From the IMG/VR virus record IMGVR_UViG_3300027522_000010, positions 1 through 40,294 of that record: a stretch of 40,294 nt of DNA, one strand, 5' to 3'. The notes under the pieces are model-generated. The model made no database searches. It had not been told where the DNA came from and worked only from the letters and a program-made list of their open reading frames with translations. Made by a program: the position numbers and the translations under genes. Positions 1,618 to 39,739 of this stretch are shown here, piece by piece; position 1 is the first letter of the stretch; each line of letters begins with the position of its first letter. The DNA comes from a virus.

Positions 1618-3833
1618 TGTACGAACAGAGTTTATATAAGTCAATAGATCCTATTAGATCAAACACTATTAAAAGACTAAACAAGTCTAAGAAGTGGAAT
1701 TACGGCTACGACAAAGAGCACGACGTAATTGTTATATCTAAGACTGGTCAAATTGGAGAAGTCATAGATATTCAAGGATTAAAGATAGCTCTTCCTAAGA
1801 TGCCTGGTAATGTGTATAGCAACGATGAAGCTAAGTGGAAAAAATTTGATCAGCCAAAAGAATTGTCTAAACTTAAAAGTATATTTGATTGGAGAAACTA
1901 TCCTGAAGACTTAAAAAATCAATGGCATGATTACATAGACGAAGAGTTTGCTCGTAGAGAAGAAGGCTTTTGGTTCAACAATAGTGGTACGCCAACTTAC
2001 ATAACTGGAACGCATTATATGTATTTACAGTGGAGTAAGATTGATGTTGGTGCTCCTGACTTTAGAGATTCAAATAGAATATTCTATATATTTTGGGAAG
2101 CTTGCAAGGCCGACAAAAGGTGCTATGGCATGTGTTATCTAAAGAACAGGCGTTCTGGTTTTTCTTTTATGAGCTCAGCAGAAACAGTAAACCAAGCTAC
2201 AATATCAAGTGACGCTAGGTTTGGTATATTATCTAAATCTGGTGCTGATGCAAAGAAGATGTTCACGGACAAGGTTGTACCTATATCTACTAACTATCCT
2301 TTTTTCTTCAAACCTATTCAAGATGGTATGGATAGACCAAAAACAGAGCTAGCATATAGAGTTCCGGCATCAAAGCTTACTAGGCGTAAGATAGACAGTA
2401 AAGAGAGACTAGAAGAGCTTGAAGGACTTGATACAACTATTGACTGGAAAAACACTGGTGATAACAGCTACGATGGTGAAAAGCTAGCCTTATTAGTTCA
2501 CGATGAAAGTGGTAAGTGGGAAAGACCAGACAACATACTTAATAACTGGCGAGTTACAAAAACTTGCCTTAGACTAGGTAGTAGAATAATAGGTAAGTGC
2601 ATGATGGGTTCAACATCAAATGCTTTAGACAAGGGTGGTTCTAATTTTAAGAAATTATATAACGACAGCAATGTCAACAAAAGAAATAGAAATGGTCAAA
2701 CAAAATCTGGTTTATATGCTTTGTTTATCCCAATGGAATGGAACTTTGAAGGATTTATTGACAAACATGGAAGACCTGTCTTCACTACTCCAGAATCCGA
2801 TGTTCATGGACCAGACGGAGAATTAATTGACATAGGCGTTGTGGATCATTGGGAAAATGAAGTTGAAGGATTAAAAGACGATCAAGACGCTTTAAATGAG
2901 TTTTATCGTCAGTTTCCAAGAACAACAGAGCACGCTTTTAGAGACGAGACTAAAAACAGTTTGTTTAACTTAGCTAAAATATACGAGCAAATAGATTACA
3001 ACGAAGATCTTAAAAGTTCGTCAGCTGTTACAACAGGATCTTTTCAGTGGGCTAATGGTTTAAAAGATTCTAAAGTGGTTTTTATGCCAGATCCCAACGG
3101 AAGGTTTAAAGTTAGTTGGGTTCCGCCTAGAAATTTACAAAACCGAGTAATAGTTAAAAATGGAATAAAATATCCAGGTAATGAGCATGTTGGTGCATTT
3201 GGATGTGATAGTTATGATATTAGCGGAACTGTTGATGGCAAAGGATCTAAAGGTGCTCTGCACGGTTTAACTAAGTTTTCTATGGAAGATGCTCCTGCAA
3301 GTTCATTTTTTTTAGAATACATTGCTAGACCACAGACCGCTGAGATATTCTTTGAAGATGTGTTGATGGCGTGTATATTTTACGGTATGCCTATACTAGC
3401 AGAGAATAACAAGCCAAGGCTATTGTATTACTTTAAACGAAGAGGATACAGAGGTTTTAGCATGAATAGACCAGATAAAGTTTGGAATAAGCTTTCGGTG
3501 ACAGAAAAAGAAATAGGTGGTATGCCTAACTCTAGCGAAGATATTAAACAATCACACGCAGCTGCTATTGAAATGTATATAAACGACCACGTTGGAAACT
3601 TAGGTGACGGCAATTATGGAACAACATATTTTACAGAGACACTGAACGACTGGGCACAATTTGATATAAATAAAAGAACAAAGCACGATGCTTCTATTAG
3701 TTCTGGTTTAGCCATAATGGCTTGCAATAGAAATTTGTATAAACCTATTTCTAATAGAGTAACTCAAAAACTAAATTTAGGTATAGCTAGATATAAAAAC
3801 GAAGGCTTTTCCTCAAAAATAATAAAACGATAA
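1617..3833 (+). CDS. terL: terminase large subunit (ATPase and nuclease)
   Basis: This 738-residue protein would be the packaging motor, which translocates DNA into the prohead through the portal and cuts it. The ATPase domain shows a Walker A-like loop at residues 176-183 (KNRRSGFS), a Walker B at about 290-297 (LALLVHDE, with D296 and E297), and a coupling-type motif soon after (MMGSTSNA). The nuclease half has an RNase H-like layout: a first acidic strand (GAFGCDSYD, D531 and D534), a second candidate acid at E596 (ILAEN), and a third at D691 within KHDASISSG. Length is typical of the long terminases of Bacteroidota podoviruses. The Walker A loop lacks the usual lysine before the Ser/Thr (Gly-Phe-Ser instead of Gly-Lys-Ser). 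It is followed after one base by the portal gene. Confidence 0.93.
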   Translation: MYEQSLYKSIDPIRSNTIKRLNKSKKWNYGYDKEHDVIVISKTGQIGEVIDIQGLKIALPKMPGNVYSNDEAKWKKFDQPKELSKLKSIFDWRNYPEDLKNQWHDYIDEEFARREEGFWFNNSGTPTYITGTHYMYLQWSKIDVGAPDFRDSNRIFYIFWEACKADKRCYGMCYLKNRRSGFSFMSSAETVNQATISSDARFGILSKSGADAKKMFTDKVVPISTNYPFFFKPIQDGMDRPKTELAYRVPASKLTRRKIDSKERLEELEGLDTTIDWKNTGDNSYDGEKLALLVHDESGKWERPDNILNNWRVTKTCLRLGSRIIGKCMMGSTSNALDKGGSNFKKLYNDSNVNKRNRNGQTKSGLYALFIPMEWNFEGFIDKHGRPVFTTPESDVHGPDGELIDIGVVDHWENEVEGLKDDQDALNEFYRQFPRTTEHAFRDETKNSLFNLAKIYEQIDYNEDLKSSSAVTTGSFQWANGLKDSKVVFMPDPNGRFKVSWVPPRNLQNRVIVKNGIKYPGNEHVGAFGCDSYDISGTVDGKGSKGALHGLTKFSMEDAPASSFFLEYIARPQTAEIFFEDVLMACIFYGMPILAENNKPRLLYYFKRRGYRGFSMNRPDKVWNKLSVTEKEIGGMPNSSEDIKQSHAAAIEMYINDHVGNLGDGNYGTTYFTETLNDWAQFDINKRTKHDASISSGLAIMACNRNLYKPISNRVTQKLNLGIARYKNEGFSSKIIKR

Positions 3834-3834
3834 T

Positions 3835-6258
3835 ATGTCTAAAGCACCTCATAGTTATTTTCCAAGCCAGGTCGTTAGCGATCAAGAAAAAGCTACAAAA
3901 GAATATGGTCTAAAAGTAGCAAGAGCAATAGAGCACGAGTGGTTTTCTGATAATCAAGGTAATTTAGGTGGAAAGTATGGTATGCACTCTCACAATCAAA
4001 AAAGCTACCATTCATTAAGACTGTATGCTAGAGGAGAACAATCAATACAAAAGTACAAAGACGAGCTTTCTATAAACGGAGATTTATCTTATTTAAACTT
4101 AGACTGGAAACCTGTACCTATTATACCAAAGTTTGTAGATATAGTTGTAAACGGTATTGCTGAAAGAACTTATGATATAAAAGCTTATTCTCAAGATCCT
4201 TATGGAGTAAGCAAAAGAACTGAGTATATGGAGTCTATATTGAAAGATATGAAGACGCAAGAGTTCAACGATTATGTTGGAGAGGCTTTTGGAATAAACA
4301 TGTATCAAAACAATCCCGATACTCTTCCTAAAAGTGAAGAAGAACTAAAGCTACACATGCAGCTAACGTATAAGCAAGAGGTTGAGATAGCTGAGGAGCA
4401 GGCTATAAACGTTTTACTTGACGGTAGTAGATACGAATTAACTAAGAAAAGGTTTTACTACGATCTAGCCGTTTTAGGTATAGGTGCTGTAAAAACTACA
4501 TTTAATAAATCAGAAGGTGTTAAAGTTGACTATGTAGATCCTGCAGATTTAGTATACTCTTACACAGAGTCTCCTTACTTTGAAGATATATATTATGTTG
4601 GTGAGGTTAAAACAATTCCAATCAACGACCTAATAAAACAGTTCCCACACTTAACTAATGAAGATTTAAAAACCATACAGCAAGATTATTCTCAAAGAGT
4701 AGACAACTACTCTGTTTCAGGAGAGCAAGATACTAATAAGGTTAGGATATTGTACTTTAACTACAAGACTTACAAAAGTGAAGTATATAAAATAAAAGAA
4801 ACAGCTAGCGGTGGAACTAAGGCTATAGAAAAAGATGACACTTTTAACCCACCCGCAGATATGGACGCTGGGTTTGAAAAATTAAGTAACCAAGTTGAGT
4901 GCCTTTATGAAGGCGCGGTTGTGTTGGGAACAGACAATCTTATTAAGTGGGAAATGTCTAAAAACATGTTACGCCCTAAAAGTGATTTTACTAAAGTTAA
5001 AATGAACTACTCTATAGTAGCTCCTAGAATGTACAAGGGTAAAATAGAATCCTTGGTAGGTAGAATAACTGGATTTGCCGACATGATTCAATTAACACAC
5101 TTAAAGATTCAACAAGTAATGTCTAGAATAGTTCCAGATGGCGTTTACTTAGACGCTGATGGTTTAGCTGAAATAGATTTGGGTAACGGAACAAACTACA
5201 ATCCTCAAGAAGCGTTAAATATGTTTTTCCAAACAGGTTCTGTTATTGGTAGATCAATGACAGCTGATGGAGATATGAATCCTGGTAAAGTTCCTATACA
5301 AGAAATTAGTACGGGTAACGGTAGCGGAAAGCTTCAAAGCTTAATAGGAAACTACAACTACTATTTGCAGATGATTAGAGACACTACCGGCTTAAACGAA
5401 GCTAGAGATGGTAGTACACCAGATAAAAACGCTTTAGTGGGTGTTCAAAAGTTAGCTGCCGCTAACTCTAATACTGCAACAAGACACATACTCCAAGCTG
5501 GATTATTTTTGTCTACTGAAGTAGCAGAGTCTTTGTCGCTTAGAATATCAGACATTATAGAGTATTCTCCAACTAAAGATGCTTTTATACAAGCTATAGG
5601 AGCACACAACGTTGCTACTCTTGAGGAAATGAGCAACTTACATCTTTATGATTTTGGAATATTTTTAGAATTAACTCCAGATGACGAAGAAAAAGCTATG
5701 TTGGAAAACAACATACAAATGGCTTTAAATCAAAAGAATATAAACTTAGAAGATGCCATAGACATAAGAGAAATAAGAAACGTAAGTCTGGCAAATCAAC
5801 TTCTTAAGATACGTAGAAAAGAAAAAGAAGAAAAAGATAGACAGTTGCAGCTAGAAAACATTCAAGCTCAAGCGCAGTCTAACACTCAAGCCGCTCAGTC
5901 AGCTGCTCAAATTGAAATGCAAAAAGACCAGGTGTTAACTCAATCTAAAGCTCAACTAAAACAGGTTGAAGCCCAACTTAATTCTCAAGCGTTAATGCAA
6001 GAAGCTGAGATTAAAAAGCAACTTATGCAGCTAGAGTTTCAAATGAACATGCAGCTTAAGAACCTAGAAGTTGGTGGCATCAAAGATAGAGAGAAAAGCA
6101 AAGAAGACAGAAAAGACGAAAGAACTAAAATACAAGCCACTCAACAAAGTGAGCTAATAGATCAAAGAAACGGTGGTAAGCCACCTAAAAACTTTGAGTC
6201 ATCAGGTAATGATATACTTGGTGGCGGTTTAGGTTTAGATGATTTTGGGCCTAGATAA
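3835..6258 (+). CDS. portal protein
   Basis: This 807-residue protein forms the dodecameric ring at one capsid vertex through which DNA passes and to which the connector binds. It is assigned from its place between terminase and scaffold/capsid genes, its length, and features seen in long portal proteins: an N-terminal helical region with KPVPIIPKFVDIVVNGIAER, a central region with the D-P-x-D-L-x-Y-S-Y-T pattern (VDPADLVYSYTESPYFED), and a wing/stem region with long helices. The C-terminal 150 residues (about 655-770) are a Gln/Lys/Glu-rich coiled coil, followed by a Gly-rich tail, which would correspond to the barrel inside the capsid. No other family explains this combination well. Confidence 0.88.
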   Translation: MSKAPHSYFPSQVVSDQEKATKEYGLKVARAIEHEWFSDNQGNLGGKYGMHSHNQKSYHSLRLYARGEQSIQKYKDELSINGDLSYLNLDWKPVPIIPKFVDIVVNGIAERTYDIKAYSQDPYGVSKRTEYMESILKDMKTQEFNDYVGEAFGINMYQNNPDTLPKSEEELKLHMQLTYKQEVEIAEEQAINVLLDGSRYELTKKRFYYDLAVLGIGAVKTTFNKSEGVKVDYVDPADLVYSYTESPYFEDIYYVGEVKTIPINDLIKQFPHLTNEDLKTIQQDYSQRVDNYSVSGEQDTNKVRILYFNYKTYKSEVYKIKETASGGTKAIEKDDTFNPPADMDAGFEKLSNQVECLYEGAVVLGTDNLIKWEMSKNMLRPKSDFTKVKMNYSIVAPRMYKGKIESLVGRITGFADMIQLTHLKIQQVMSRIVPDGVYLDADGLAEIDLGNGTNYNPQEALNMFFQTGSVIGRSMTADGDMNPGKVPIQEISTGNGSGKLQSLIGNYNYYLQMIRDTTGLNEARDGSTPDKNALVGVQKLAAANSNTATRHILQAGLFLSTEVAESLSLRISDIIEYSPTKDAFIQAIGAHNVATLEEMSNLHLYDFGIFLELTPDDEEKAMLENNIQMALNQKNINLEDAIDIREIRNVSLANQLLKIRRKEKEEKDRQLQLENIQAQAQSNTQAAQSAAQIEMQKDQVLTQSKAQLKQVEAQLNSQALMQEAEIKKQLMQLEFQMNMQLKNLEVGGIKDREKSKEDRKDERTKIQATQQSELIDQRNGGKPPKNFESSGNDILGGGLGLDDFGPR

Positions 6259-30400: not shown

Positions 30401-32985
30401 CTAAGGGTAGTGACATAGTAAAAATAAGCTCTGGCAAATGGCCTATAGAAGGTCCTAAGCTAGCTGAAGATGGTTACACATTTGACTTCTCTGACTTTGT
30501 AAACGTAAGAGGTGGGATTGATGGTCCATTGATGAAAAACTTTAAGAAAAAGCTAGCTAAGTATGGTGGTGAAAATATGTTTATACTTACCGCTAGACCT
30601 CAAGAAGCAGATAAAGCAATACACGGATGGTTAAAGTCAAAAGGTATTAACATACCTCTAGCTAACATAACTGGTTTAGCAAATAGTACTGGAGAGTCTA
30701 AGGCTCAGTGGATGCTTGACAAGTTTGCGGAAGGTTATAACGATATGTATTTTGTAGATGATGCTTTGCCTAACGTTAAAGCCGTTAAGCATGTTCTTAG
30801 TCAATTAGACATAAAGTCTGACGTTCAACAAGCTAAAATTAAGTTTGCTAGCAAGATGAGTGCCACTATTAACGAGATGATCGAAAGATCTAGAGGCATA
30901 CCAAGTGAAGAGATTATATCTAGAGCTATATCAAGAAAAAGAGGAAAGAATAAAAACAAGTTTCAAGTATTTTTACCACCATCCGCTGAAGACTTTTTAG
31001 GTCTAACGTACTACATGTTAGGTAAAGGCTCTCAGGGAGATGCAGATCTTAGGTTTATTAAAGAAGCTTTAGTTAATCCTTTCTCAAGAGCATATACAGA
31101 GCTAGACGCAGCTAGACAAACTATACTAAACGACGTTGCAAATCTGAACAAGAACTACGACGGAGTTAAAAAGAAACTAGGAAAAATGATGCCTAATAGC
31201 GAGTTCACTTATGACAACGCTATTAGAGTTTACTTATTCAACAAGCATGGGCATACTATTCCTGGAATATCAAACGAAGAAGTAGCAAACTTAGTTGGCA
31301 GAGTTAATGCTGATATGGAGCTTTTAGTTTACGCCGAAACCTTAGACATGTTATCTAAAACAGAAGCTTATCTTAAGCCTGGCGAGTCTTGGACAATAGA
31401 GTCTATAGCGTCTGATATGAAAAAAATAATTGAAGGTATACATAGAAAAACGTTTTTACAAGAGTGGATTGACAATAAGAAAGAAATTTATTCTGAAGAA
31501 AACTTAAACAAAATAGAAGCAGCTTACGGAACTTCATATAGAGAAGCTTTAGAAGATATTCTTTATCGTATGGAGACTGGTATTAGTAGACCAACTGGTA
31601 AAAACAGAATAACTAATCAATGGACTAACTGGTTAAATAACTCGGTTGGAGCAATAATGTTCTTTAACGTTAAATCTGCAGGGCTACAAATGATCTCTAC
31701 AGTTAACTACTTAAACTTTGACGACAATAACGTGTTTGCGGCCGGTAAAGCTTTTGCTAACCAAAAACAATACTGGGAAGACTTTACGTTTATTTTCAAC
31801 TCTGACTTTTTAAAACAAAGACGATCAGGTTTAAATACAGACGTTTCACAGTCTGAAATAGCATCAGCTGTTGCCGGAGCTACAAATAAGGCTAAAGCTG
31901 CAATTGCTTACTTGCTTAAAATAGGTTTTTTACCTACTCAAATAGCGGATAGCTTTGCAATATCAGGTGGTGGTGCTGCTTTCTACAGAAATAGAGTTAA
32001 CAAGTATTTAAAAGAAGGTTTAACTAAAACAGAAGCTGAGCAAAAAGCATTTGTTGACTTTAGAGAAGTAACGGAAGAGTCTCAACAGTCTGCTAGACCT
32101 GATAGAGTTTCCCAACAACAGACAACTAATGCAGGTAGACTTATCCTTGCTTTCCAAAATGCACCTATGCAGTTTAATAGAATAATTAAAAAAGCCGCAC
32201 TAGACTTAATCAACGGAAGAGGTGACTGGAGAGCTAACACTAGTAGAATAATATACTATGGTGGAGTTCAAAGTTTTATATTTTTAGCGCTTCAAAACGC
32301 GTTGTTTGCCTTAGCGTTTGACGACGAAGAGAATAAAAATCTTACTAAAAAAGAACTAGAATATACGCTAAAGTTTGAACAAACAAAGTATGAAAGAATA
32401 GTAAACGGTATGATAGACACCTTGCTTAGAGGATCTGGTATAACTGGCGCTGTAATATCTACTTTAAAAAATGCAACTCTTAGGTTTATGTCGGAAGCTG
32501 AAAAAGGTAAAAGGTTAAACGAAGTAAGCCCTTTGCTTGAACTATTAAACATATCACCTCAAATAGGATCTAAGGCTAGAAAAATAGTTAGTGGAGAAAG
32601 AGCTTACAAGTGGGATTCAGAGGCTATACCTTTTATGAGCACTTTAAATAGTAAAAATCCTTTATGGTTAGCTACCGCCCCTGTTATTGAGGGATTAACT
32701 AACGTACCATTAAACAGAATTCTTACTAAAATAAATAATTTAAAAGAAGCCTCTAATGATCAAAACGAAGCTTGGCAAAGAGTTGGCGTATCTTTAGGTT
32801 GGAGCTCTTGGGACTTAGGCGTAGATCCTACAAAAGAAGTAAAAGAGGTTATTAAAGACGCTAAAAGAAAAGGGTTGATAAAGAGCAAGAGTTTAGGTAA
32901 GTCTTGCCTTGCGACAAAGAGCAACGGTACTTCTTGCAAGAACATTACTACTAACCCAAGCAGACTGTGTTACCTTCACGATTAA
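24403..32985 (+). CDS. giant polyvalent internal virion protein: metallopeptidase, PD-(D/E)XK-like and HAD-like modules
   Basis: This 2860-residue protein covers a fifth of the window. The start (FEGDLYTQEDVDKRASEKGL) is a short motif I associate with very large phage proteins, followed by coiled-coil stretches. Residues 963-967 are HELSH (HExxH zinc peptidase motif), with candidate third ligands at E1023 or E1030/E1031. Residues 1702-1703 (PD) and 1720-1722 (EVK) fit a PD-(D/E)XK nuclease core. A HAD hydrolase set follows: D1984-F-D-E-T1988, T2063 (ILTARP) and D2119-D2120. A hydrophobic segment lies near 2615-2640 (SFIFLALQNALFALAF). The C-terminus is a Cys3His zinc-knuckle-like tail (C2835, C2845, C2856, H2859). 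This is the architecture of polyvalent proteins, which are packaged in virions and enter the host with the DNA. The modules are called by motif only. Confidence 0.8.
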   Translation: MFEYEFEGDLYTQEDVDKRASEKGLTTEEYLQARPQLKKVEAGKQNGTTQTDETMVSGTESTLVDGLLEQVAGNVGDRTSFVDKDFFNKQEKEFAGQLAVKFPEFKVSKSGKFFPFSDATYNDPRASQRMGLANYVEVEAPNGEKLLLETAISSSSQKKIKEKGEDGLAKYYQDLQNDLTNFINVNSNEGAKFKNQLSENKKNRRTLQLEFEKSTTANENQLSDVNTQFPDISIFDTSERLIVEKVISGGAGMDVKFPIRRQSEEDQYETIQPYEEALKRATLSLFSEEGTKPSDYTELDVKNKALEILRTDAIDKIETDNKQNVIDDLQNGEILPSLKEEFDKNTFLNYDNLKSYITVGTKEYSEDLVKIMNGIVKSKVDLENTETQLQDIINKKVYTKKDISDYTEVYSGYSQQIEDYNTSLELYGNFATVDVKDINKSINLLQKNYDGWDKQSANLALNFRDFAARASYGVSTFIGADGHLPDLDNPDMTREEARTLRLQGIIAQSNIIKSGYEDDVAFENAFKTPEKFMKWTINMANTQLPILASLAIPGGWSGLLANSFGENYSQMTLEDMEDKAAAEAFGMSYEEKSRFNKWATSTAYAVPEVVLDRLTTGARVRGITEMFKKSGDDLIDVTAKQVLNDVAFGIPTDAVMGALSEGTTQVWQNWLTGKELSEGVGEAAFSGLIMDGALSSLPTLKSAAIMMFTDNAKIDEARAFQKQIDDLIVLGKYQPEGTFSKEIKELETQRDELIREFEDNVIGIGAKGIGQSAVEAYVRLGTMKVSLKNRAQAIIDDKLLTEEQKQLQLAILKANYDAIKGVQKQYTQEKGTEFNMYVLDPSNKVEVDKFYKDAKAKLVKDGNANPTKIQLDDEARFNYNIRKIEQDLLNPAKGVLDKKLRVFRSKDELDNIEDQTIKEAAIKAYEQGDSGFALEKGELKDGETTLIFTENMAKDDRLEIRTHELSHELTKQAFNDNPAIFDGMAMTIMEWAKANDTELYNRLDRQVQRGDEAGEKGKLLNYEVVANFFEEVAAGRVDLKAKKNRGLLTISAFGTNKAMKDEYGVDFDLAGVDDAISLMYGIAKKISKGTLTQKEIDELSDNEQIKALEQRGNQIKEQYLFALGNGIKKASKAQIKIDNLGDKYTREEWQRFGADETIAAIYEDLTSLVGSKAFMLERLPSFSKEDFITDAIGELIPHIRNFNIDRKKTDEGFGLSGWINSQLMNKIGNVLKKKTATTESFVVDTTEETFKEIQDDRNNLEMFEEEDLSLQAQLRKKQDEQRREDKGLDLGVEYSEFRRSLELSGVKGLDKKMQEIVKKITLKVLGSSKFINLDINVLEAELQREFEKELKKTIQDAMGGTNDYTNFLIQNKDAILKYMDISSLVAIERQVSDDDKILTKFVRRLTTQKDIQDAIDNGWLAHVENPAVGPNLYEVLNPSTSDFLKFYNPPLRVDSPKKVKQWDAMPDAQKQALADNMGITLEQAKARFVEVRSGLKGTRKDTLAERIGGQFAFDATMEVIQSPEFASLREAAGMPVVAQARIKEIARRIDRGIEVKFASKPINQAQISLAYRITEASDGSLYSGKLGISYSGYGDERKYFVRNKSVLERLVKESMVRSDNTIQVALGIAYEVMASDYYRSQRIVDPTTRKQIYLQALSDKVENIKSTPNSIFEQIHIDDVYKYAKSNNVKIVRKATEKDDAPDIYYYVGTKKQGNGFGIEVKMGLSKGTSVTLRPYRNSKGEWYFVNKKQSKEKAYNYDFLSNQDKQNFDKLLREAADALNRFEKDHKIKIDFDKGISAKDYKRIFTDEGYTKSSYSIRDKHSLSPSITGAMYAEKKITSGLITIEDRGIFMLPTSPVSQKDKVGEAAEITTQVVAEFKKLTDKTIPLFTTQLDTQLEFRTGKPRINDGGSRSITMRFSQAIDNNSIDKSPINLVSDGEMITKAISNVLNAKKAAKVGKSSDKAIIAARLTNHKTESVGMSAFDFDETLIVDGENFVTATKGSDIVKISSGKWPIEGPKLAEDGYTFDFSDFVNVRGGIDGPLMKNFKKKLAKYGGENMFILTARPQEADKAIHGWLKSKGINIPLANITGLANSTGESKAQWMLDKFAEGYNDMYFVDDALPNVKAVKHVLSQLDIKSDVQQAKIKFASKMSATINEMIERSRGIPSEEIISRAISRKRGKNKNKFQVFLPPSAEDFLGLTYYMLGKGSQGDADLRFIKEALVNPFSRAYTELDAARQTILNDVANLNKNYDGVKKKLGKMMPNSEFTYDNAIRVYLFNKHGHTIPGISNEEVANLVGRVNADMELLVYAETLDMLSKTEAYLKPGESWTIESIASDMKKIIEGIHRKTFLQEWIDNKKEIYSEENLNKIEAAYGTSYREALEDILYRMETGISRPTGKNRITNQWTNWLNNSVGAIMFFNVKSAGLQMISTVNYLNFDDNNVFAAGKAFANQKQYWEDFTFIFNSDFLKQRRSGLNTDVSQSEIASAVAGATNKAKAAIAYLLKIGFLPTQIADSFAISGGGAAFYRNRVNKYLKEGLTKTEAEQKAFVDFREVTEESQQSARPDRVSQQQTTNAGRLILAFQNAPMQFNRIIKKAALDLINGRGDWRANTSRIIYYGGVQSFIFLALQNALFALAFDDEENKNLTKKELEYTLKFEQTKYERIVNGMIDTLLRGSGITGAVISTLKNATLRFMSEAEKGKRLNEVSPLLELLNISPQIGSKARKIVSGERAYKWDSEAIPFMSTLNSKNPLWLATAPVIEGLTNVPLNRILTKINNLKEASNDQNEAWQRVGVSLGWSSWDLGVDPTKEVKEVIKDAKRKGLIKSKSLGKSCLATKSNGTSCKNITTNPSRLCYLHD

Positions 32986-33004: not shown

Positions 33005-34036
33005 ATGAAACTTAAAATTATAATATTCCTTTTGCTTCTTAGCTTTACTGCTGATGCTCAGCTTAAAAAAGCCTTTAAGTTTTCTACGTTTTACGTAGCC
33101 GCTAATGGCGGTACATCTTTGTCAGACAGAGATGTGTATTCTATAGATGGTAGTGCATTAGTGTACGACACTATATTTACTCCTTTCGACTACTCACTAA
33201 CAATGGGTATAAGAAAGATTAAGAGATTTCCATACGAAGCTAGAACTCAGTTTAAAGACGGTTTAGAAACTTCTTTTTCAGATGCCGCTAGCGTTGGACT
33301 ATCTCCGTTTGAATATCTCTTTGAGCTAGACTATAGAAGACAAGAAGGCGTAGAGTACTTTGATCAAAACCATTTTTTAAGATATGTTAAACCACTGTGG
33401 TTAGCTAAGGTAGAATATTTAAAAGAAGGCTTTGCAGATATAGAATACTTTGAGTCTACTATTAGACTAAGAATAAACTCTAAAAAGAAATTGTCTTTTA
33501 ATATTGGTGGTGTAAATAGACTAGCAGAGCCTTACGGCTACGATCCTCTAGAGGAGTGGACAAATAATGTTGGTAACGTTCATTACACACAGTTAGCTAT
33601 TCAGGAGGGATATAGCGTTGATGTATTTCAATCAGAGTATAAAGATCCGAACGGAAACATTGTTGCGAATAACTCTGCTGTTTGGGAAGAAGTAGTAATA
33701 CCTACCGTGTTAAAAAATTACGTAGACAAAAAAAGAAATGAATTGCCACAGCAATTACAAAACTCGTTAGTTATTGGCTTTGACTTCTATCATTATAAAA
33801 AAAACTTCTGGTTACATTCATGGGGTAATTTAATGCCATATCATTATGATAATGGCGATCAGTTCTCATATCACAACTTTAACGATGGAGAGCAGTGGAA
33901 CGATTACTCTGGTGGTTTAATATTTGGCTACAAGCTAAACAAAAACCTAGGATGTTTCATAGAGGGTAAATATAACAAGTACTGGAATAAAGAGTGGTAC
34001 GATTTTAAAGCAGGAATAAATTACATAATATTTTAA
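33005..34036 (+). CDS. exported outer-membrane beta-barrel-like protein
   Basis: From the ATG at 33005 this is a 343-residue protein that begins with a clear signal peptide (basic MKLK, hydrophobic IIIFLLLLSF, cleavage likely after ADA at residues 16-18). The open frame runs back to 32909, but that start lies inside the previous gene and would hide the signal peptide. The mature part alternates polar and aromatic residues in strand-like segments (YGYDPLEEWTNNVG, YSGGLIFGYKLNKNLGCFIE). It ends in F (KAGINYIIF), the C-terminal aromatic typical of outer-membrane barrels recognised by the Bam machinery. I recall similar proteins in marine phage genomes, without known function. Possible roles are altering the host surface, blocking a second infection, or release. 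Confidence 0.65.
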   Translation: MKLKIIIFLLLLSFTADAQLKKAFKFSTFYVAANGGTSLSDRDVYSIDGSALVYDTIFTPFDYSLTMGIRKIKRFPYEARTQFKDGLETSFSDAASVGLSPFEYLFELDYRRQEGVEYFDQNHFLRYVKPLWLAKVEYLKEGFADIEYFESTIRLRINSKKKLSFNIGGVNRLAEPYGYDPLEEWTNNVGNVHYTQLAIQEGYSVDVFQSEYKDPNGNIVANNSAVWEEVVIPTVLKNYVDKKRNELPQQLQNSLVIGFDFYHYKKNFWLHSWGNLMPYHYDNGDQFSYHNFNDGEQWNDYSGGLIFGYKLNKNLGCFIEGKYNKYWNKEWYDFKAGINYIIF

Positions 34037-34037
34037 C

Positions 34038-34322
34038 ATGGCAAAGGAGTTAAATGAAAACACTAGTTTTAAAGTTAGTGTACAAACGTTAATAGCGATG
34101 GGTTTTGGTATGGCAACGGTTATAAGCATGTGGTTTGTTCTACAAGCCGATATAGCTGAGGCAAAAGAATTACCAGTTCCACCACCGCAAGATGTTAGTC
34201 GCATGGAATTTGACATGAAAGATAAGAATATTAGGCTGTCTATTGAAAACACTGAAAAAGCTGTTGATGATTTAAAAGATAGACTTATTAGGATGGAAGA
34301 TAAATTAGATAAACTTAGATAA
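34038..34322 (+). CDS. small inner-membrane-anchored coiled-coil protein (spanin- or holin-like?)
   Basis: This 94-residue protein has a short polar N-terminus and one transmembrane helix at about residues 15-37 (LIAMGFGMATVISMWFVL). A Pro-rich linker (ELPVPPPQDV) follows, then a C-terminal coiled coil (about 55-94, IENTEKAVDDLKDRLIRMED). This is the topology of an inner-membrane spanin subunit: N-in, one anchor, and a periplasmic coiled coil. The neighbouring exported proteins and the DUF5675-like gene downstream make a lysis or envelope role plausible. It could also be a structural membrane protein. It starts one base after the barrel-like gene and ends in a TAATG junction with the thioredoxin-like gene. 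Confidence 0.65.
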   Translation: MAKELNENTSFKVSVQTLIAMGFGMATVISMWFVLQADIAEAKELPVPPPQDVSRMEFDMKDKNIRLSIENTEKAVDDLKDRLIRMEDKLDKLR

Positions 34323-34642
34323 TGAAAACTATAGCTTTATTATTGTTGTTATCTTCAACCGCTTGGGGACAAATAGTAGTAACTCACTTTAATGCTGACT
34401 GGAACAGTCCTAACAAAGTAAGTTACATTGGTAAGCTAACAGACTGTGACATAGTATATGTTGATATAGCTGTAGCACCAGTGTTACAAGCTAAACACGA
34501 GATAGTTGTAGTACCTACAGTTGTTATATTTAAAGATGGAGAAGAAGTAAAAAGATTTCAGGCTGATATATCCTTTAGCATGAAAGCAACAAGAGAGGAT
34601 ATGCAAGAAATAATTGACGAACTAATAATGAGCGACTTTTAA
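34322..34642 (+). CDS. exported thioredoxin-fold protein lacking the CxxC active site
   Basis: This 106-residue protein has a signal peptide (MKTIALLLLLSSTAWG, then Q17). The mature part follows the thioredoxin pattern: strand and active-site position F-N-A-D-W-N-S-P-N (23-31), a strand (DIVYVDIA), the conserved cis-proline strand VVVPTVVIFKDGEEVKRF, and a C-terminal helix (TREDMQEIIDELI). In active thioredoxins the motif is F-x-A-x-W-C-G-P-C. Here both cysteines are asparagine while the tryptophan and proline remain, so dithiol-disulfide chemistry at this site is excluded. A binding or chaperone-like role in the periplasm is possible. TAATG junctions on both sides tie it to its neighbours. 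Confidence 0.75.
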   Translation: MKTIALLLLLSSTAWGQIVVTHFNADWNSPNKVSYIGKLTDCDIVYVDIAVAPVLQAKHEIVVVPTVVIFKDGEEVKRFQADISFSMKATREDMQEIIDELIMSDF

Positions 34643-36453
34643 TGAAATACTTATTCACACTATTACTACTAGTAAACATAGCGTTTGCTCAATGTCCTAA
34701 CGGAACTTATGTAAACATAGTTATTAATCCGGATCAATACCCAATTGAAACATCTTGGGCTATAGTTGATTACTTTGAAGATACTATTGCTACAGGTGGT
34801 CCTTACGACGATATAGTTGGATACGAACCACAGCTAATGCAAGTATGTATACCTAATGGTGATTACTTGTTTAATATATCCGATCAATATGGTGATGGTG
34901 TTGCTGGTAGTTTATGGGGTGGACAAGATGGATCTTACTATGTAGTGCATTGTGGTGATACTATAGTGCAACCAGACTCTGCTAACTTTGGCTTCGCTGC
35001 TTTTCATGGGTTTACACTAGATGATTGTGCTCCGGCACCGCCATTGTATGGTTGCATGGATGATAACTACATAGAATTTTTACCTGTAGCTACTGTTGAT
35101 ACAGGTATGTGTTTCATTGAGAAAGTATTTGGCTGTACAGAAGAAGACGCGTTTAACTATGATGAGTATGCTAACACTGATATTACAGTTGATAGCTGCT
35201 TACACACGCTAGAACTTACAGATTTAGCTGGTAACGGTTGGGCTGGCGCTTACGTACAAGTTATACAAGGCTATAATTCTTTGGGTGTATTCACGCTAGA
35301 AGATGGCTTTGACACTACGTTTACATTTAGCTTAGATATATCGCAAGTAATAGAGGTTATATTCTTTACGACACAACAATCGCAGTTTACTTCAGTACAG
35401 TGTGGCTACACTTTGTACTCAGAAGAACACCTTACTATATACGAGCCAGGAGGATTTGCTAATCCACTTATACCTTTTCAACCAGTGCTTGGCATGCCTT
35501 ATTGTGGTAATAGCTGCATAGATAAAATATATGGCTGTACGGATGATACAGCTTTAAATTACAACGAGAGTGTGAATACAGATGACGAGAGTTGCTACTA
35601 CGTTTCTGGGTGTACTAATCCAATATACCTAGAGTATAACGCAGACGCTGACTTTGATAACGGAACCTGTGAAACGCTCGTGGTTCTAGGTTGCATGGAT
35701 GAAGCAGCCTTGAATTATAACCCTGAAGCAAACACAGAACTAAATGGCTCTTGTGTTGATGTAGTTTTAGGATGTATGAGTGAGTTAGCGTTTAACTTTA
35801 ATCCTAACGCAAACGTAGATGACGGCTCGTGTATAGCATACTCGTATGGTTGCACTGATCCTACCGCATTTAATTACGACGCTGATGTTAACACTGACAA
35901 CGGTAGTTGTATAGAAATTATTAACGGCTGTATTGATAGTACAGCTATGAACTACAATCAACTTGCAAACACTGATAATAACTCTTGTATTTATCCACTG
36001 CCTGGTTGTACTGACGCGACCGCTGAGAATTATAATATATCGGCTAACGTGTCAGACTCTAGTTGCTACTATTCTGCTGGTTGTAGTGTTGGTGATATAT
36101 ACTATATTCCTAATGAGTGTTTTAGCTGGGTAATAGAAGTTGACGAGCTATGTTGTAATGCTGAGTGGGATAATACATGTGTAACACTATACGAATACTG
36201 TGTTGACGGATGGACTGGCCCAACTAACATTGCAGAGCTTAGAAGCAATTTAATTATATATCCTAACCCTACAAGTGATTATATAAACATCAGTAAGAAA
36301 GTTGACGCTAAAGCGTTTAATACCCTTGGCAAGCTTATATTATCTAAAAAACAAACAAACGTCCTAGACTTATCTAGTTTTGAATCTGGAATTTACAACG
36401 TTATACTTAAATATAACAATATAATAATTAACAAAAGAATTATAAAACAATAA
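34642..36453 (+). CDS. T9SS-targeted, Cys-repeat surface/secreted protein
   Basis: This 603-residue protein has an N-terminal signal peptide (MKYLFTLLLLVNIAFA, then Q17) for Sec export. Residues 535-603 are a type A T9SS sorting domain (IIYPNPTSDYINIS at the start, a central FNTLGKLIL, then SSFESGIYNVIL and NKRIIK), which would carry it through the host outer membrane. In between are two GDG/GNG modules (about 78-110 and 190-290) and nine copies of a roughly 24-residue repeat G-C-x-D-x-x-A-x-N-Y-x-x-x-A-N-x-D-x-x-S-C. Two copies lie between the modules and seven in tandem at about 297-478. A Cys-rich block (ELCCNAEWDNTCVTLYEYC) precedes the sorting domain. These elements are common in secreted proteins of marine Bacteroidota. 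It was probably acquired from a host and may coat or modify the infected cell surface. Confidence 0.9.
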   Translation: MKYLFTLLLLVNIAFAQCPNGTYVNIVINPDQYPIETSWAIVDYFEDTIATGGPYDDIVGYEPQLMQVCIPNGDYLFNISDQYGDGVAGSLWGGQDGSYYVVHCGDTIVQPDSANFGFAAFHGFTLDDCAPAPPLYGCMDDNYIEFLPVATVDTGMCFIEKVFGCTEEDAFNYDEYANTDITVDSCLHTLELTDLAGNGWAGAYVQVIQGYNSLGVFTLEDGFDTTFTFSLDISQVIEVIFFTTQQSQFTSVQCGYTLYSEEHLTIYEPGGFANPLIPFQPVLGMPYCGNSCIDKIYGCTDDTALNYNESVNTDDESCYYVSGCTNPIYLEYNADADFDNGTCETLVVLGCMDEAALNYNPEANTELNGSCVDVVLGCMSELAFNFNPNANVDDGSCIAYSYGCTDPTAFNYDADVNTDNGSCIEIINGCIDSTAMNYNQLANTDNNSCIYPLPGCTDATAENYNISANVSDSSCYYSAGCSVGDIYYIPNECFSWVIEVDELCCNAEWDNTCVTLYEYCVDGWTGPTNIAELRSNLIIYPNPTSDYINISKKVDAKAFNTLGKLILSKKQTNVLDLSSFESGIYNVILKYNNIIINKRIIKQ

Positions 36454-36853: not shown

Positions 36854-37321
36854 ATGAAACTAGAAGTGTTAAGATTTAGCTCACAGGTAGATTCTACTTC
36901 GGGACTATTATTTGAAGTTACAGATATTAGAAAACATTTTTTGTGTTACACTCTTGAAGACGAGCGCAGAGCGTTCAAGGTAAAGGGTGAGACTAGAGTT
37001 CCAGCAGGAACATATAAAATTGAACTAAGAACTGAAGGAGGATTTCATGGAAGATACGACAAAAAGTATCCTGGCGTACACATTGGTATGTTGCACATAC
37101 AAGACGTACCTAACTTTGAATATATACTAATACACACTGGTAATACTGATGAGCATACCGCTGGTTGCTTGATAGTTGGTGATGCTCAAGAGAACAATAA
37201 AATAATAGCTGACGGTTTCGTAGGTAAGTCTGTTAACGCTTACAAAAGAATATATCCTAGCATTGCTAAGGCAATACAACAAGGAGAAGAAGTAACAATA
37301 ACATATATAGATCACGACTAA
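36854..37321 (+). CDS. DUF5675-like protein, candidate cell-wall (lysis) enzyme
   Basis: This 155-residue protein matches the DUF5675 pattern as I know it: L-E-D-E-x-R (residues 35-39), R-V-P-A-G-T-Y-K-I near 51-59, an H-G-R-Y-D-K-K-Y-P-G segment, HIGMLHIQDVPNFEYILIH, and the core H94-x-G-N-T-D-x-H-T-x-G-C105-L. The His...Gly-Cys arrangement resembles the active site of L,D-transpeptidase (YkuD) enzymes, so a murein-directed activity is a reasonable guess; the family itself is formally of unknown function. No other endolysin candidate is seen in the window. It lies after the membrane/envelope genes and joins the next gene by TAATG. Cytoplasmic unless released by a holin, since no signal peptide is present. 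Confidence 0.65.
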   Translation: MKLEVLRFSSQVDSTSGLLFEVTDIRKHFLCYTLEDERRAFKVKGETRVPAGTYKIELRTEGGFHGRYDKKYPGVHIGMLHIQDVPNFEYILIHTGNTDEHTAGCLIVGDAQENNKIIADGFVGKSVNAYKRIYPSIAKAIQQGEEVTITYIDHD

Positions 37322-39694: not shown

Positions 39695-39739
39695 ATATAA
39701 AAAACGGCCCATAAAGTAATTATATACCTTATGGACCGT
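39695..39739 (-). terminator. terminator for the minus-strand (Hc1/RNR) transcript
   Basis: ACGGCCCATAA at 39704-39714 pairs with TTATGGACCGT at 39729-39739 (11 bp, one C-A mismatch) around a 14-base AT-rich loop. Read on the minus strand, the stem is followed by a T run (the complement of A39699-A39704), so it fits an intrinsic terminator for leftward transcription. On the plus strand it is followed by AAAATTG and would be weak. Confidence 0.65.

Follow-up and report, generated by a model that had tools for sequence, protein, structure and literature searches.

Genes for proteins with T9SS sorting domains have been found in phages before. In Cryophage, three T9SS-tagged cargo genes were described, and it was proposed that the phage hijacks the T9SS of its host (Bellas 2020, PMC7468147). 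T9SS sorting domains were also noted in crAss-like BACON phages (de Jonge 2019, PMC6949934), and a few viral proteins in UniProt are already named as T9SS sorting-domain proteins. No experimental test of T9SS use by phages was found in the open-access literature, and the proposals rest on single genomes. For the cellular type A substrates NucA and FspA, the structures of the sorting domains (8glk_D and 8glj_D) have been solved on the T9SS translocon.

Here, a viral record of 40,294 nt (IMG/VR record IMGVR_UViG_3300027522_000010, analyzed in full and called the window below) was studied, in which the gene g21 encodes a predicted T9SS cargo protein. Like the Cryophage genes, g21 is a phage gene with a T9SS type A sorting domain. 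However, the Cryophage cargo consists of enzymes and a PA14 protein encoded by variable genes of one cryoconite phage, whereas g21 belongs to one conserved repeat-protein family with a fixed place in an envelope cassette of four genes that many phages share. The crAss-like BACON phages also have ORFs with T9SS sorting domains, which lie near head genes, but these are gut phages with BACON domains, and no cassette or selection analysis appears in the passages of that report that were consulted. With NucA, FspA, and RgpB, g21 shares a signal peptide and, according to domain models and predicted fold, the C-terminal domain. In contrast to these proteins, it is phage-encoded, and its body is a repeat rod and not an enzyme or protease. 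The general concept of a phage-encoded T9SS cargo is thus not new, as it was proposed for Cryophage in 2020 and noted for the crAss-like BACON phages in 2019, and in this respect the novelty is lower than an earlier sequence-only reading of the window had implied. New are the conserved syntenic cargo family, the envelope cassette, the evidence for selection, and the two interchangeable C-terminal signals that replace one another in the family.

The g21 gene lies within a run of phage genes

The features of g21 and its neighbors are listed in Table 1. The frame of g21 is open throughout, and its start codon shares bases with the preceding stop codon (TAATG), as the sequence-only reading had stated. 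The gene is embedded in a phage genome, also in agreement with that reading: the flanking genes on both sides are phage genes with the same orientation, and neighbors either overlap by 1 bp or are separated by 1–16 bp. It is located between the gene for a 2860-residue protein and tail-fibre-like genes, all of which share its orientation. This layout suggests that g21 is made late, in one transcript with the structural genes. In a promoter search, 27 sigma-70-like sites were found, compared to 26.7 expected by chance. The Bacteroidota -7 motif TANNTTTG was at chance level as well, and it did not occur on the plus strand between positions 31957 and 34983. The idea that the cassette has a promoter of its own was therefore dropped, as no promoter signal near g21 exceeded chance.

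Table 1. Positions of the cassette genes, the g21 domains and a neighboring gene in the window
Feature	Position	Strand	Evidence
g18, predicted exported outer-membrane beta-barrel with C-terminal Phe	33005..34036	+	signal peptide by sequence; model and fold search
g19, coiled-coil protein of 94 aa with one transmembrane helix	34038..34322	+	sequence
g20, signal peptide and thioredoxin-like domain without CxxC (WNSPN)	34322..34642	+	PF00085 and TIGR01068, both below cut-off
g21, predicted T9SS cargo protein, 603 aa	34642..36453	+	PF18962 and TIGR04183 matches; AlphaFold model; PDB match
g21 Sec signal peptide, residues 1–16, predicted cleavage between A16 and Q17	34642..34689	+	hydrophobic core; A-x-A site; Q17 and C18 invariant
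g21 N-terminal beta-rich domain, about residues 17–132	34690..35037	+	AlphaFold strands; conserved in relatives
g21 nine GC-framed Asp/Asn-rich repeats	35048..36087	+	sequence
g21 small Cys-rich helical region ahead of the tag (CCxxxWDxxC)	36082..36222	+	sequence; homologues; AlphaFold
g21 residues 535–603, C-terminal T9SS sorting domain of type A	36244..36450	+	PF18962; TIGR04183; 8glk_D; dN/dS 0.28
g23, DUF5675 protein, neighbor	36854..37321	+	PF18925, 96.5 bits

Domains of the g21 protein

A T9SS substrate is expected to carry a Sec signal peptide, and by inspection, g21 has one, as had been claimed earlier. At its N-terminus (MKYLFTLLLLVNIAFA, followed by QC), an n-region with K, a hydrophobic core, and a cleavage site of the A-x-A type can be recognized, and a lipobox is absent. 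The two residues directly after the proposed cleavage site, Q17 and C18, are invariant in 29 g21 homologues. Among the 77 relatives with a readable N-terminus, 75 have retained the signal peptide, and the other two probably represent mis-called starts.

The sequence-only reading had also assigned residues 535–603 to the type A sorting domain and had suggested a profile search as a check. This search yielded a significant match: PF18962 scored 38.8 bits (gathering cut-off 27) at residues 539–601, at the C-terminus and over the full model (positions 1–75 of 75), and TIGR04183, likewise matched over its full length, scored 31.8 bits (cut-off 23). In a six-frame search of the 40.3 kb record, g21 was the sole sorting-domain match (E 2.9e-12), and the search of control genomes gave no match above the cut-off (0 of 14). 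The predicted structure is in agreement with this assignment. AlphaFold predicted a C-terminal beta-sandwich, the fold of known sorting domains, with a pLDDT of about 77–87 for roughly residues 541–600. Its best PDB match was the T9SS sorting domain of NucA (8glk_D; probability 1.00, TM 0.79 on the target, 2.0 Å), and the next sorting-domain matches were FspA (8glj_D, TM 0.76), RgpB, and mirolase.

Two of the nine repeats, a number that was confirmed by a recount, precede a second beta domain (about residues 188–290), and seven follow it. In the relatives of g21, the number of repeats varies from 9 to 19. The repeats seem to resemble calcium-binding repeats. The mature body is strikingly acidic, with 77 Asp and Glu versus 2 Lys and Arg in residues 17–530, and the tag is basic. 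The model of g21 was built with 29 homologues; its overall pTM is low (0.35), and therefore, it does not fix the arrangement of the domains. A structure search with the model gave no significant PDB match for the domains other than the tag, and the assignment of a known fold to the N-terminal domain was dropped, as the significant matches were restricted to the tag.

The repeat motif is also present in GC-repeat proteins of Flavobacteriales (UBA6772, MED-G21, CPC1469, and Cryomorphaceae MAGs) with 31–45% identity. As in the g21 family, several of these end with type A or short tails (see below), but they are chromosomally encoded, larger, and lack g18–g20 as neighbors. In five viral loci of related phages (L023, L026, L031, L057, and L012), between one and three GC repeats of this kind are present in upstream virion-like proteins of 1100–1400 aa.

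The C-terminal tag is under purifying selection

Non-redundant, 3′-complete matches to the g21 body (n = 87) were used to analyze the C-termini. A type A tag was present in 67 cases and a short tail in 19 cases. The single exception was not a g21 protein but another, virion-like protein in which a few repeats occur, and thus, a T9SS-type tail is present in each of the 86 non-redundant relatives of g21 whose C-terminus is intact. The pooled dN/dS of the tag is 0.28 (95% CI 0.21–0.36), compared to 0.16 for the body, and the tag is under purifying selection. It is the fastest-evolving part of g21, with a mean pairwise identity of 48% versus about 74–79% elsewhere. A relic would be expected to drift towards a dN/dS of 1 and to break in some lineages; neither was seen, which argues against the tag being a relic.

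A short C-terminal tail replaces the type A tag in sister proteins

The consensus of the short tail, derived from 19 g21 relatives, is LxxITDILGRPxKxxKNKLLFYIYxDGTVEKK. The short tail (ITDILGRPxK..LLFYIYDDGTVEKK) stands in place of the type A tag in L110, L111, L113, L127, L156, L168, and other loci. As both occupy the same place in sister proteins, they appear to be interchangeable in evolution. No match to the short tail was found in Pfam with 18 tails or in NCBIfam with the whole proteins, and it falls outside the type A families PF18962 and TIGR04183. Profile comparison of the short tail with type A gave a weak match (E 0.029, probability 1.7%), too weak for a claim that the short tail is a simple truncation of type A.

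A profile of 18 phage tails had 64 matches across six Flavobacteriales genomes. At most of the loci examined there, the short tail is located 0–4 residues before the stop codon, while the bodies differ. Many of these proteins have signal peptides, several of them clear. SprA is encoded in all six Flavobacteriales genomes with related proteins or short-tail matches. The short tail may thus be an unrecognised T9SS signal. This would fit the reported finding that 22 C-terminal residues of a type A domain can be sufficient for export (review PMC10202324), and if the short tail is such a signal, T9SS substrates are under-annotated.

g21 belongs to a cassette of four genes

The cassette is comprised of the predicted outer-membrane barrel g18, the inner-membrane coiled coil g19, the exported thioredoxin-like g20, and the cargo g21. 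The model of g18 has a pLDDT of 68 and a pTM of 0.65, and fold search returned 27 PDB hits at E ≤ 1e-3, nearly all of them outer-membrane barrels, with the porin NanC first. Similarly to the partner barrels PorP/SprF or PorV, g18 is a barrel gene kept in a cassette with a T9SS substrate. However, no match of g18 to the PorP/SprF family was found in Pfam at E ≤ 0.5, and g18 also occurs without cargo. For lack of a Pfam match, the assignment of g18 as a PorP/SprF barrel was rejected; the fold search showed an outer-membrane barrel. A search of the phage collection gave no match to g18, and g18 was found in 73 viral loci. For g19, at least 576 viral relatives were found. The CxxC active site of thioredoxin is missing in g20, which has WNSPN instead, and in 62 phage relatives. 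The neighbor g23 weakly resembles a Tlde1 domain (PF10908, 18.3 bits, below the cut-off).

The gene order was analyzed in 87 distinct viral loci, in each of which all four genes were found. The orders were 18-19-20-21 (58 loci), 21-18-19-20 (17 loci), and 19-20-21-18 (12 loci), and every order is thus a rotation of one cycle g18-g19-g20-g21. A second, distant phage group (L066–L090) has the fixed order g19-g20-g18 without detectable cargo, and PF18962 had no match in its 25 records. This suggests that the trio g18–g20 predates the cargo. In the first group, there are at least two relatives (L028 and L051) that have kept g18 and lack g19–g21. Because g18-only relatives and the group without cargo exist, the cassette is not obligate.

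Additional genes were observed at the cassette of some loci. In one slot beside it, L017 has a gene for an exported Omp28-like protein with thioredoxin fold and short tail (934–1914), and L056 has one for an exported TlpA-like protein with thioredoxin fold (from 8483). A second type A cargo occupies a cassette slot in L172 and L174; in L172, two successive type A T9SS cargo genes (643–2727 and 2727–3959) adjoin g18. Genes of about 230–290 aa are inserted between g20 and g21 in L023 (7936), L026 (7758), and L049 (7637); their products lack a signal peptide and look LamG-like by eye.

Proposed function and alternative explanations

The curated domain models, the predicted fold, the conserved signal peptide, the selection on the tag, and the tails of the relatives all support the earlier proposal of a complete T9SS substrate that is made by the phage, which would then use the machine of the host. 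We consider it quite probable that g21 is a functional phage-encoded substrate of the host T9SS, with export by Sec and passage through the T9SS; export through the host T9SS is very likely. In this scenario, g21 would be made late, together with the structural genes, and would be exported by Sec through its signal peptide. In the periplasm, the type A domain would be recognized and passed on via SprA/PorV, and after processing by PorU, the protein would be located at the surface. Together with the g18 barrel, the presumably redox-dead g20, and the membrane protein g19, it might remodel the envelope of the infected cell; this is suggested by the fact that the four neighboring genes address the inner membrane, the periplasm, the outer membrane, and the surface. 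Tentatively, the benefit that we favor is the masking or alteration of receptors, which would exclude superinfecting phages and stop released progeny from binding to cells or debris. Rather doubtful is the complete picture of a widespread marine phage group with a dedicated envelope-takeover cassette, a T9SS-exported receptor-masking surface part, and a pair of interchangeable T9SS signals that includes a short tail outside Pfam and NCBIfam.

An exported g21 might instead serve adhesion or aggregation, with a sticky cell or lysate binding particles or neighboring cells and thus aiding the spread of progeny or the host. The acidic repeat rod with its 9–19 repeats and the cellular Flavobacteriales relatives, which are large repeat proteins, would fit such a role, but expression alongside the late structural genes would leave the host little time to benefit, and g21 showed no recognizable binding domain with a known specificity; we regard this role as possible, though on the unlikely side. 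That the cassette disrupts the outer membrane, with g21 being exported to loosen or break it late in infection, is improbable. It is true that g18, g19, and the weakly Tlde1-like g23 are envelope proteins encoded at a late position, and that the second phage group has conserved the trio g19-g20-g18 in the absence of cargo. However, g21 has no lytic domain, and a long, variable, acidic repeat rod would be an unusual lysis factor.

The sequence-only reading had itself raised the alternative that g21 is a virion protein with the tag as a relic, here of host origin. Its gene lies among structural genes, and repeats like those of g21 are present in virion-like proteins from related phages and in a virion structural protein of a Synechococcus phage. 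Nevertheless, all relatives with intact ends have retained the signal peptide and a T9SS-type tail, purifying selection acts on the tag, and Sec export would remove the protein from the cytoplasm, where virions assemble. Together with domain models and fold, these results make the virion alternative very unlikely. The virion genes of the window lack the g21-type repeat, which also speaks against the virion alternative, and therefore, the idea of a decoy for virion repeats is no more than a lead. Joining of a host gene to a phage contig during assembly could be imagined, as cellular relatives of g21 exist in Flavobacteriales. But dozens of viral contigs, independent of one another, have the same gene at the same place and flanked by phage genes, and this synteny refutes a chimera, the probability of which is negligible. 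With the conserved cassette and its invariably kept secretion signal, the use of the T9SS by phages can be tested directly, and the cassette indicates how phages of Bacteroidota might control the surface of the cells that they infect.

Phage relatives, host, and further features of the record

The terminase of the record, which is an uncultured phage, is 64% identical to that of MW202828, 46% to that of Elemovirus, and 32–38% to those of Cellulophaga/Tenacibaculum phages, and its nearest counterparts come from phages that infect Flavobacterium, Cellulophaga, Tenacibaculum, and Maribacter. The phylum of these hosts has the T9SS. The host of Elemovirus is Flavobacterium sp. BAL314. Neither a PF18962 match nor g18 was found in elemoA, phi38:1, phi13:2, Gundel_1, and MW202828, the last of which is an uncultured record, and the cultured relatives were therefore rejected as evidence. 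The earlier label of a flavophage thus holds with respect to relatedness, but the cultured flavophages examined lack the gene. The phages with g21 are mostly uncultured and probably infect flavobacteria of the ocean.

Small complete T9SS-type substrates of 186 and 199 aa are encoded in L105 (1147–1707) and L106 (1105–1704), respectively, which are phages of about 640 kb; there, the gene with signal peptide and tag adjoins a DnaJ-like gene. In the window, a gene for a GroES-like co-chaperonin (phrog_13932, 804–1388) is located directly upstream of the terminase gene. After the last gene on the plus strand, a strong terminator-like hairpin with 15 pairs and a T run is present on the minus strand (39704–39739).
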